Source: Candidatus Altimarinota bacterium
GTDB lineage: Bacteria; Patescibacteriota; Gracilibacteria; BD1-5; UBA6164
Direction: 5' to 3'
Assembly (NCBI GenBank): GCA_030683605.1
Contig: JAUXPL010000017.1
Location: forward strand, 1 to 64,000
Length of the DNA stretch: 64,000 bases
The translations under genes were made by a program, and so were the position numbers. Position 1 is the first letter of the stretch. Each line of letters opens with the position of its first letter. A model generated the notes under the pieces. That model was given only the letters and a program-made list of their open reading frames with translations. It was not told where the DNA came from and made no database searches. Below, in pieces: positions 42,178 through 46,598 of the stretch.

Positions 42178-43632
42178 TTAATCTTCATAACCAGATGGAA
42201 TATTTTTAGCAAAATTAGTTGCTTGTTCATAAACATATGCAATTTCTAGCAATTTTTCTTCTTCCAATCTAGGAGTAAGAATTTGTATTCATACAGGTAA
42301 TAATTCCTTTTCATTATCCTCAGATTCTGCAAATCAGCAAGGTACTGATATTCCTGGCAATCAAGCTAATGAAGCTGGTATAGTGTAAGCATCAGATAAA
42401 TACATTTTGATTGGATCATCCATTTTATCTCATATTTTCCATGCTACACTTGGTGCAACTGGTGATATAATAGCATCTACTTGTTTAAAAGCTTTATTGA
42501 AATCTTCAATTATTAAGGTTCTTATTTGAGTAGCTTTTTTGAAATATGCATCATAATATCAAGCTGATAATACATAACTTCATAATACTATTCTTCTTTT
42601 TGCTTCATCTCAGAATCACTCTTCCCTATTATGCATAAATAATTCATCCGTCGTTCAATATAACTCATTAGAATTATGTCAAAATCTTATTCAATCATAT
42701 CTAGATAGATTAGTTGATACTTCAGCTGGCATTATTATATAATATGTAGCTATAGCATATTTAGTCATTGGTAGGCTAATTTCTACTATTTCAGCTCATA
42801 ATTCTTTCATTTTTTGCACTGCTTCAGATATTCTAGATTTTACTCACTCATCTAATCATTCCTCAAAATATTCTTTTGGAACTCAAATTTTAATTCATTT
42901 TAAATCTTTTGATTCCCATATTTTAGGATTTATTTGGTCTTTTCATGGAAGAGAAGTATTTTCTTTTGGATCATATCAATTCATGATATCATAAAGTAGT
43001 GCTGAGTCTTTTACAGTTTTTGTAAGAGTACCAGGACAATCCAAACTAGATGCCATAGCCATTACTCAGTATCTAGAATTTCTACCATAACTTGGTTTAA
43101 ATCATACTATTCCGCACATAGATGCAGGTTGTCTAATACTTCATCATGTATCTGTTCAAAGAGCTGCTGGTGCCAGTCAAGCTGCAACAGCTGCTGCAGA
43201 TCATCCACTAGAACCTCATGGTATTCTGTTTGTTCACCATGGATTTACTGTAGTATTTAGTGCTGAACTTTCACTTGTAGATCACATTGCAAACTCATCC
43301 ATATTTACTTTTCATAGAGAACTCATACCTTCATCTACTAGTTTTTGTATAACTGTTGAATTATAAGGTGGTTTGAAATCTCTAAGCATATTTGATGCAC
43401 ATGTTGTAACTACTCAAGTTTCACAAAAAATATCTTTTACAGCAATAGGAGCTCAGTATAAAATTCACTCATTATTATTTAATCAATCTTTATTTACAAA
43501 ATTGAATGATTTAATTTTTGGATCGTATTTCTCTATTCTTTTTTGAAAATAATCAAATACTTCTTTTCTAGATGTTTTACCCATTTTTATATCATCAATA
43601 ATTTGTTCTAAACTTAAGTCTTTAAATATCAT
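42178..43632 (-). CDS. gatA: Glu-tRNA(Gln) amidotransferase subunit A
   Basis: A 484-residue amidase-signature enzyme. Catalytic Lys lies in [11 protein letters not shown] (about residue 75). The Ser pair lies in GSSGGSAAAVAAGLAPAALG followed by [20 protein letters not shown] (about 145-185). [22 protein letters not shown], which is typical of GatA, and the ending [19 protein letters not shown] agree. With GatB and GatC (not in this window) it makes Gln-tRNA. The glycines of GGS motifs are mostly TGA. Confidence 0.94.
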
Positions 43633-43682: not shown

Positions 43683-43863
43683 AAAAAAAATAAAAGAAAA
43701 AATCCTTCAAAAATGAAGGATTTTTTCTTTTATTTAGAAAATTAGTTAACTTCTCTAAGTCTAGCAGCTTTACCTGTAAGATCTCTAATAAATTTAATAG
43801 ATTTTCTTCTAACTTTAAATTGTCTAATAATTTCTATTTTTTGAATATTTGATGAGTGAATAG
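43683..43863. repeat. Long direct repeat, left copy (3' end of rplS)
   Basis: About 180 bp nearly identical to 46188-46366 (I see about four differences, for example CCTGT versus CCAGT). It holds the terminator and the last 39 codons of rplS. It ends exactly where the endonuclease stop codon begins (43864). Confidence 0.93.
43742..43863 (-). pseudogene. rplS: 3' fragment of rplS left by the R-M insertion
   Basis: It encodes only the C-terminal IHSSNIQKIEIIRQFKVRRK...LTGKAARLREVN of ribosomal protein L19, then stop at 43742, and retains its terminator (about 43693-43732). It has no start and cannot be a working gene; the intact rplS lies at 46245-46598. Confidence 0.93.
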
Positions 43864-44790
43864 TTATGTTCTCTTATTAAATTGTAATCAATGAAAAGCT
43901 TCTCATTTTCAACTTCATTTCATTTGTACTGTTATATCTCAAATATGAAAACTTCATTGACTAGTTTCCTTATATGGTTTTATACAACTTTTTTCTATTA
44001 CTTTATCCATATTTTGTATACTAATATCAACTAATTTAGTGTTTGAATATTCATTATTATTATATAAATAATAATCTGCAAAATAAAATTCTTCTGAATA
44101 TCATTCTTTTAAAACTATTTCAGTAATCTTTTTTTGGTTAATTGTAAAGAAATTTTTTATTTCTAATCTTTCATCATTTGTAAGTTCATTTATTAACCAT
44201 CTATTTCTCCTTCATTGTTCTAAATTAAATAAATTATTGATACAATCTATAGATTCTGTATCTTTTTCGGATATTTTTGTATTAAGTTCTAAATTTATTA
44301 AACAATTTAGTTCTTTTGTAGATAATTTACTAAAATCTCATATTAATAATTTTGAAGGCTTATAATCTCAAAATCAACAAAATTTTGACAATCATACTTC
44401 CAAAGAAGATGAAAATACTATTCAATTTTTTATAAGTATTTCTTTAAAGTTTTTGACATTAGTAATTTGTACTTGAATACTTCAATTTGAAGACTTTATT
44501 GATATTCATTTTTTTATTAATTCATCTCCTTTTTTAAAAACAATATGAATATCAGATTTAGGAGGCTTTTTTTGTCATCAAAATCTATTTTTAACATTTT
44601 TTGGTGCTTTTTCTCAATATATTTCATATGTAGCAAAATCTAATATTCATAAATCATTTGCTATAAACGAAACTATTTTAAATCATTGCTCATTAGTATT
44701 ATAATTATTAATTAATTCTAAAATAACATCTTCAAAATCATATCAATAATATCTTCCGTTTTCTCATGCATATACCAAATCTGTAACCAT
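43864..44790 (-). CDS. Type II restriction endonuclease
   Basis: A 308-residue protein starting MVTDLVYAGENGRYYGYDFE. KPPKSDIHIVFKKGDELIKKGISIKSSNGS (about residues 78-107) fits a D...(x)IK catalytic core of restriction enzymes, and the same phrase is common in enzymes paired with C5 methyltransferases. TGA glycines occur in and around this site. It ends exactly at the junction with the duplicated rplS sequence. It is co-directional with the controller gene (14 nt apart) and divergent from the methyltransferase. The recognition site cannot be told from sequence. Confidence 0.82.
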
Positions 44791-44804
44791 AATGAAATAA
44801 ATTA

Positions 44805-45005
44805 CTAAAATAAATCTTTAAGTTCTACACCTAAAGCTATTGCTATTTTCTCAATATTCTCTATTGAAACATTTTTTAATCACCTTTCTATGGATGATAA
44901 ATAGGTTCTATGTAATTTTGATTTAAAACCTAATTGTTCTTGAGAAATATTATTTTTAACTCTTATTTCTTTAATTTTATTACCAAGTTTAATTTTTATA
45001 TCCAT
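44805..45005 (-). CDS. XRE-family controller (C) protein
   Basis: A 66-residue helix-turn-helix protein: KIKEIRVKNNISQEQLGFKSKLHRTYLSSIERGLKNVSIENIEKIAIALGVELKDLF, the classic Xre fold. Its size and position before the endonuclease and divergent from the methyltransferase match R-M controller proteins, which delay endonuclease expression after entry into a new host. Confidence 0.9.
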
Positions 45006-45042
45006 TATATAATTTTAAAAATAATTAATATTATAATAGTAA

Positions 45043-45067
45043 TTGTAGTCAATAAATCTACACTCAA
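45043..45067. promoter_or_regulatory. Candidate C-box operator
   Basis: In the 142-nt divergent region between the controller and methyltransferase genes, TTGTAGTC and TCTACACTCAA form an imperfect inverted repeat (TGTAG-N9-CTACA). Controller proteins typically bind such paired sites beside their own promoter. Confidence 0.4.
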
Positions 45068-45147
45068 TAAATTACATTTAAATTTGTAATTTTATAAAAG
45101 AATAATATAATATTATAAAATAATATTATAATTTAATTTAAAAGTTG

Positions 45148-46197
45148 ATGATAAAATGATTGTCTTTATTTGCTAATGTTGGTATTGCAGAATTTTATTT
45201 AAATGAAATAGGAATTGAGATATTAGTTGCAAATGAATTATTAGATAAAAGAGCTAATCTATATAAATATTTTCATCCAAATAGTAATATAATTTGTTGA
45301 GATATTACTGAAAAAAGTATATTTAATAAAGTAATAGAAGAATCTAAAAAATTATGATGTGATTTTGTAATGGCAACTCCCCCATGTCAATGAATGAGTA
45401 TTGCATGAAAAATGGATGAAAATGATTCGAGAAATAATTTAATTATTAAAGCAGTTGAAATTATAAAGAAGTTAAAACCTAAATATTGATTAATAGAAAA
45501 TGTACCTTGATTTTTAACTACATATATAAAATTAAATTGAGAAAAAATACTTATTCCTGAATATATAAAAAATGAACTTTGAGATTTTTATAATATAAAA
45601 TTTGAAATATTAAATTCAGCTAATCATTGAACTCCACAGGTAAGAAAGAGAGCATTTGTATTAATATCTAGTAAGAAAGTATGAAAAGAACTAAATTTTC
45701 CAAATAAACAAAAAGAAATTACAGTTAAAGAAGCAATATGACATTTACCAATTTTAGAAAGTTGAGAAAAATCAAACATAAAATATCATGAAGCAAAAAC
45801 ACATAATAAAAATCACATATTATGGATGAAAAATACGCCTAGTTGAAAAACAGCATTTGAAAATTTAATTCATTATCCTAAGAAAAATAATTGAGAAAAA
45901 ATAAAATGATTTAGTACTACATACAAAAGAATAAATTGGGATAAACCAGCGCCTACGATCACTATGTCAAGTTGAGCTATTTCATCACAAAATAATGTTC
46001 ATCCATGAAGAAAACTAGAAAATTGAAATTATAGTGATGCTAGAGTTTTAACATTAAAAGAACTTTTTATATTAACATGATTACCAGAAAATATAGAATT
46101 TCCTGACTGGTGTAGTGATAATTTTATTAGGCAAGTTATTTGAGAATGAGTACCTCCATTACTTATAAAAGAAATACTTAAAGATATAAAAAAATAA
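45148..46197 (+). CDS. DNA (cytosine-5) methyltransferase
   Basis: A 349-residue M.HhaI-class enzyme. Motif I is unusual but readable (LSLFANVGIAEFYLNEIG), motif IV is MATPPCQGMSIAGK (Cys catalytic, about residue 79), motif VI is LIENVPGFL (about 118), motif VIII is TPQVRKRAFVL, and motifs IX-X are KPAPTITMS and RQVIGEGVPPLL. The glycine of PPCQG is TGA. The stop codon TAA (46195-46197) lies at the edge of the right rplS repeat. Confidence 0.94.
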
Positions 46198-46366
46198 AAG
46201 AAAAAATCCTTCAAAAATGAAGGATTTTACTTTTATTTAAAAAATTAGTTAACTTCTCTAAGTCTAGCAGCTTTACCAGTAAGATCTCTAATAAATTTAA
46301 TAGATTTTCTTCTAACTTTAAATTGTCTAATAATTTCTATTTTTTGAATATTTGATGAGTGAATAG
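46188..46366. repeat. Long direct repeat, right copy (3' end of the intact rplS)
   Basis: Partner of 43683-43863; offset about 2503 bp. It contains the end of the working rplS gene and its terminator (46197-46234, AAATCCTTCA / TGAAGGATTT). Confidence 0.93.
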
Positions 46367-46598
46367 GAAATACTTTTTCAACACCAAATGCTCCAATTTT
46401 TCTTCTAACTGTAATGTTTTTTTCTAATTCAGATTTACCAGAAGTTTTAATTACTAAACCTTTGTATTTTTGAATTCTTTCTTTACCAGCTTCTTTAATA
46501 ATTTGGTAAACCTCTACTTCCATACCAGTTTTAATTTGTTCTCTACCTTCTTGTAAAAAAGAAGATTGTATCTTTTTAATTAATTCAGAATTTGTCAT
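46245..46598 (-). CDS. rplS: Ribosomal protein L19
   Basis: A 117-residue large-subunit protein: GREQIKTGMEVEVYQIIKE, IQKYKGLVIKTSG, ITVRRKIGAFGVEKVFPIHS, and the ending RRKSIKFIRDLTGKAARLREVN. All its glycines use GGN, as expected for a highly expressed gene. No Shine-Dalgarno precedes the ATG. The R-M cassette inserted inside its coding part but the gene is whole, because the 3' portion is present in two copies. Confidence 0.97.
   Translation of the reverse strand: MTNSELIKKIQSSFLQEGREQIKTGMEVEVYQIIKEAGKERIQKYKGLVIKTSGKSELEKNITVRRKIGAFGVEKVFPIHSSNIQKIEIIRQFKVRRKSIKFIRDLTGKAARLREVN

Follow-up and report, generated by a model that had tools for sequence, protein, structure and literature searches.

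A type II restriction-modification cassette between two copies of the rplS 3' end in a TGA-glycine bacterium: a probable insertion with long target duplication

The window analyzed here is a 64-kb stretch (64,000 nucleotides) from a Candidatus Altimarinota bacterium (G000, a 57-contig assembly) in which TGA encodes glycine (code 25). Between the coding end of rplS and gatA resides a type II restriction-modification (R-M) cassette of three genes, encoding a putative endonuclease (R) and a controller (C) on one strand and a methyltransferase (M) on the other. The features of the locus, with G004 denoting a genome of the same genus, are as follows:

42178-43632, minus strand: gatA, the native neighbour downstream of rplS (Pfam Amidase, E 1e-132)
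43684-43863, minus strand: left copy of the duplicated target, 180 nt; the 3' part of rplS, lacking a start, and the terminator, with the native junction to gatA
43688-43735, minus strand: predicted left-copy terminator with a perfect 22-bp stem (-25.8 kcal/mol, z -8.2), which would stop the C-R transcript
43864-46187: cassette core, 2324 bp, holding R, C and M only; not in G004
43864-44790, minus strand: R, putative type II restriction endonuclease of 308 aa, distant member of the HinP1I family (Pfam PF11463, E 1.4e-5)
44805-45005, minus strand: C, controller protein of 66 aa (Pfam HTH_3, E 6e-16; PADLOC Control_protein, E 2e-26)
45006-45147: divergent intergenic region between C-R and M, presumed regulatory from the ORF map
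45148-46197, plus strand: M, cytosine-5 DNA methyltransferase, 349 aa from the ATG (PF00145, E 1.7e-51; PADLOC MTase_II, E 5e-141)
46188-46366, minus strand: right copy of the duplicated target, 179 nt; ~40 codons from the end of rplS, the terminator, and also the end and stop of M
46203-46228, both strands: right-copy terminator, predicted for rplS (minus) and M (plus) at -19.4 and -18.2 kcal/mol
46245-46598, minus strand: rplS, ribosomal protein L19, whole, 117 aa (Pfam PF01245, E 4e-28; 97% identity to the L19 of G004)

The R, C and M genes are all intact. R is identified by a weak profile match alone (25.1 bits against the curated PF11463 cut-off of 25). Residues D80, K99 and Q106 of R, as well as its C-terminal QxxGxGxxxxxLQF motif, are conserved in (i) an R protein of the viral contig L105, (ii) a second R protein, L108, from the class and (iii) the true HinP1I homologue of G019. 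The L105 endonuclease, which aligns with R at 31%, is encoded on a standard-code contig beside a gene related to M (54%); thus, such an R/M combination is not unique to the window. A single-sequence structure prediction for R (pLDDT 33) is too poor for use. The likeness of R to the HinP1I/HhaI-type systems (which recognize GCGC) includes the PF11463 match just above cut-off and the conserved D, K and C-terminal motif; however, R is distant, whereas the true HinP1I homologue of G019 matches at E 1e-102, and M belongs to another group of C5 methyltransferases, with 49% identity to the LlaJI operon methyltransferase of pNP40. GCGC as the recognition motif would be a guess made from R. Avoidance of GCGC was considered as a clue and set aside, as it gives no signal (20 sites observed vs 24 expected in 403 kb, compared to 22 vs 36 in the cassette-free G004). 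M carries a PPCQG motif when TGA is read as G, and its start is more likely the ATG at 45148 than the TTG at 45145. No C-box in common with the C gene of G001 is seen.

The initial annotation placed the endonuclease, controller and methyltransferase between two rplS 3' ends and rplS itself was said to be whole; both statements agree with the gene content of the core and the complete L19 reading frame. The duplication reported from 43683 is likewise real, but the alignment starts the repeat at 43684. Each copy comprises the last ~40 codons of rplS and the rplS terminator. The two are 98% identical (E 8.5e-84): two substitutions separate them, along with one small indel/substitution event, and no other direct repeat in the 64-kb window reaches 100 nt. 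In the left-copy terminator, an imperfect palindrome has turned into a perfect 22-bp one, as hairpin-templated mutation would predict.

The empty allele that the initial annotation proposed to look for is found in G004, in which rplS, its terminator and gatA follow one another with one copy of the rplS end and without R-M genes. When the core and one copy are removed from the window, the joined flanks align to G004 without a break as a single 5006-bp block (88.7%), and the sequence beyond the left copy matches the region downstream of rplS in G004. A single rplS-end copy and no cassette are also observed in G001-G003, and the rplS-gatA gene order is the same in G001, G003, G004 and G009. G000 is the one genome among the order's 77 to possess a genuine second rplS end, and none of these relatives carries the rplS-end duplicate without R-M genes. 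The second rplS end of G038, examined as a parallel case, is an allele bubble in which contig ends overlap by 133-134 bp at 99-100% identity. In that genome (L082:1-908, L083:1-879), a GNAT-like acetyltransferase gene or a lipoprotein-like gene occurs as alternatives between rplS and dnaA, and G420, the sister of G038, has yet another lipoprotein-like gene in this position; the slot behind rplS looks variable in this other family of the order. R is absent from the other 76 genomes of the order apart from one weak distant match, and a search over the 353 genomes of the class gives two distant matches besides G000. No C5 methyltransferase is found in G002-G004. Searches for a donor of R give no match among plasmids and none by pattern among viral contigs, and no donor of the cassette is found; the nearest M homologues (68%) have another R partner and no flanking repeats.

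The outer genes of the cassette end at, or within, the duplicated sequence. As first described, R has its stop (43864-43866, minus strand) immediately next to the left copy, and it terminates as LQFN-KRT exactly at the copy boundary, whereas the R proteins of L105 and L108 continue after LQF and the N or K that follows it. M was thought to touch the right copy with its stop; the contact is confirmed, but it is more than touching, as the copy contains the TAA of M, the two Lys codons before it and the last base of the preceding Ile codon (46188-46197). The last codons and stop of M thus come from the target copy. M ends I-K-K-stop, while its relatives run about five residues longer (..MPREGK). 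No terminator of the cassette's own is detected, the terminator-like sites being found within the two copies alone. From these predictions, the doubled terminator would serve rplS, M and R.

Apart from one ambiguous SNP described below, the duplicated sequence traces to the target itself, since both copies share a G000-specific T where G004 has C and the left copy runs into the native gatA spacer. The compact cassette was probably inserted on the G000 lineage after the split from G004, duplicating ~180 bp of target without a dedicated recombinase. The incoming DNA, presumably from a code-25 relative, would have entered between the rplS coding end and gatA, with the target doubled in the same event. 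Joining may have involved staggered breaks or repair replication without site specificity, the breakpoints falling within the final codons of R and of M. Because duplication leaves rplS complete and followed by its terminator, the insertion would be tolerated; the same duplication would also supply terminators to both outer cassette genes and a stop to M. In R-M systems of this kind, R cuts unmethylated DNA, M protects the host and C times the expression of R. Cells that lose the cassette when the copies recombine would undergo post-segregational killing.

One polymorphism does not fit the simplest form of this history: an SNP gives ACA in the left copy and G004 but ACT in the right copy and the outgroups, which may reflect either a copy that was brought in or gene conversion. 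A brought-in copy would suit the main rival. In this alternative, an R-C-M circle with one rplS end, formed by excision from the same site in a conspecific cell, was joined to rplS by RecA in a Campbell-type homologous integration. Such an entry yields exactly the observed structure, and two copies would allow the cassette in and out. The ACA/ACT difference suits it, yet it is much the less favoured account: the G000-specific T is common to both copies (vs C in G004), a search with one exact pattern reveals neither such a circle nor a viral contig with an rplS end, and an initial insertion with target duplication would still be required elsewhere. A bolder extension, rather unlikely on the present evidence, is that TGA-glycine bacteria exchange an R-M cassette that has no transposase, with an excised circle carrying one rplS end that re-enters rplS elsewhere, such that the target copy is a working part of the cassette by providing terminators, a stop codon and a landing site.

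Site-specific integration is a poorer match to the locus. Integrative elements classically use the 3' ends of conserved genes as attB sites, and the copies could be read as the attL and attR of a degenerate integrative or cis-mobilizable element whose integrase was lost or acts in trans; the target and the restoration of rplS by the element would suit this reading. However, the cassette holds R, C and M with no integrase or resolvase, the one PF00589 match of G000 is a 307-aa Xer-like tyrosine recombinase on another contig, and no resolvase (PF00239) is found by genome search. These findings speak against integrase action; the phage-type integrase or resolvase that might have explained the repeat is thus not found in G000. 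In addition, core sites tend to be shorter than 180 bp, both ends of the cassette fall within the final codons of R and M, and none of the other genomes of the order (77 in all) has a second rplS end, which together make site-specific integration highly improbable. An assembly artefact or strain mixture is the least credible explanation. While such joins occur in the order, as in G038 where an rplS end is common to two contigs through overlaps of 133-134 bp, both junctions here lie within one 79-kb contig, the copies are non-identical and the joined flanks fit the empty site seamlessly.

Insertion with target duplication thus remains the preferred reading, and codon usage and copy divergence provide a relative age for it. 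TGA accounts for 44 of the 48 glycine codons of R and M, as the initial annotation had indicated by noting TGA glycine in the cassette, similarly to gatA and mutL (62 of 78 glycines; p 0.08). Between the dead rplS fragment and the live gene, 1 position in about 119 nt is different, whereas 4-fold sites differ by 35-40% between G000 and G004. Assuming no gene conversion, the age of the insertion comes to some 2% of that of the G000/G004 split, with an upper bound near 12%; gene conversion that keeps the copies alike could make the insertion look younger than it is. The cassette was probably already code-adapted on arrival, since TGA saturation would need far longer than the copy divergence allows, and would therefore have moved among recoded relatives. 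Two histories had been offered at the outset, movement within recoded relatives or adaptation since the insertion; the former is favoured by the ~98% identity of the copies, the saturation with TGA and the occurrence, in two further genera of the family, of M homologues (68%) that are rich in TGA and partnered with a different R. The grouping of these homologues with M of the window is weak (69/91), and standard-code relatives reach 66%.

Insertion of R-M systems with long target duplication has reportedly been described by Nobusato in 2000 and Furuta in 2010 (as cited through PMC3874152, PMC3031569, PMC1643837 and PMC4978471). The resemblance of the locus to this pattern, pointed out in the initial annotation, holds in its long repeats, empty allele and lack of linkage to a mobile element. 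According to published work (PMC3874152; also PMC3031569, PMC1643837), R-M units go in independently of mobile elements and duplicate a long target of variable length, on the order of 100 bp. Common to those systems and the window are an R-M unit between direct repeats of this order, a single copy in the empty relative and the absence of a linked mobile element. The locus is a real, well-supported further case of this already described R-M spread, while the joining chemistry is a proposal both in the published pattern and in the window. What sets it apart is its target, an essential ribosomal gene's end and terminator in a bacterium that reads TGA as glycine, together with a target copy that would provide the M stop and both terminators. 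Integrative elements at gene 3' ends (IME, CIME, ICE) similarly restore the 3' end of the gene entered, but here an integrase is absent, the repeat is long and the ends lie inside cargo genes. The new details are the lack of an own terminator, the outer genes ending in duplicated rplS terminators, the M stop from the target and the code adaptation. With this case, self-mobile R-M insertion seems to reach code-25 bacteria as well; the case can also be dated, the insertion being young and the cassette old and adapted to the code. A duplicated terminator and stop that serve the newcomer may provide a simple reason for the survival of such insertions at gene ends. The locus also suggests that defence genes travel inside the recoded clade, besides standard-code imports such as the HaeIII-type system of G000.

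This second R-M system (L102:7352-9417, contig C4; PF09556, E 1e-98) has TGA at only 2 of 33 glycine codons (p 1e-15 vs R and M) among TGA-rich neighbours and is likely a recent import from a standard-code donor. No long flanking repeats are detected at this locus or at the other R-M or methyltransferase loci inspected (G010, G432 and two in G001). The TGA-rich M homologues of G010 (L164:7490-9545) and G432 (L165:7376-9458) each adjoin an R-like gene, of which the G010 copy matches no Pfam or PADLOC model; by eye, an R-like gene of this kind also adjoins M in contigs of Lachnospiraceae, Bacilli and Elusimicrobia. In G001 (L100:5972-8699, contig C52), an Alw26I-type R, a cytosine methyltransferase and a C gene, all TGA-rich, reside beside phage-like genes, and the C protein of this set has 68% identity to C of the window.
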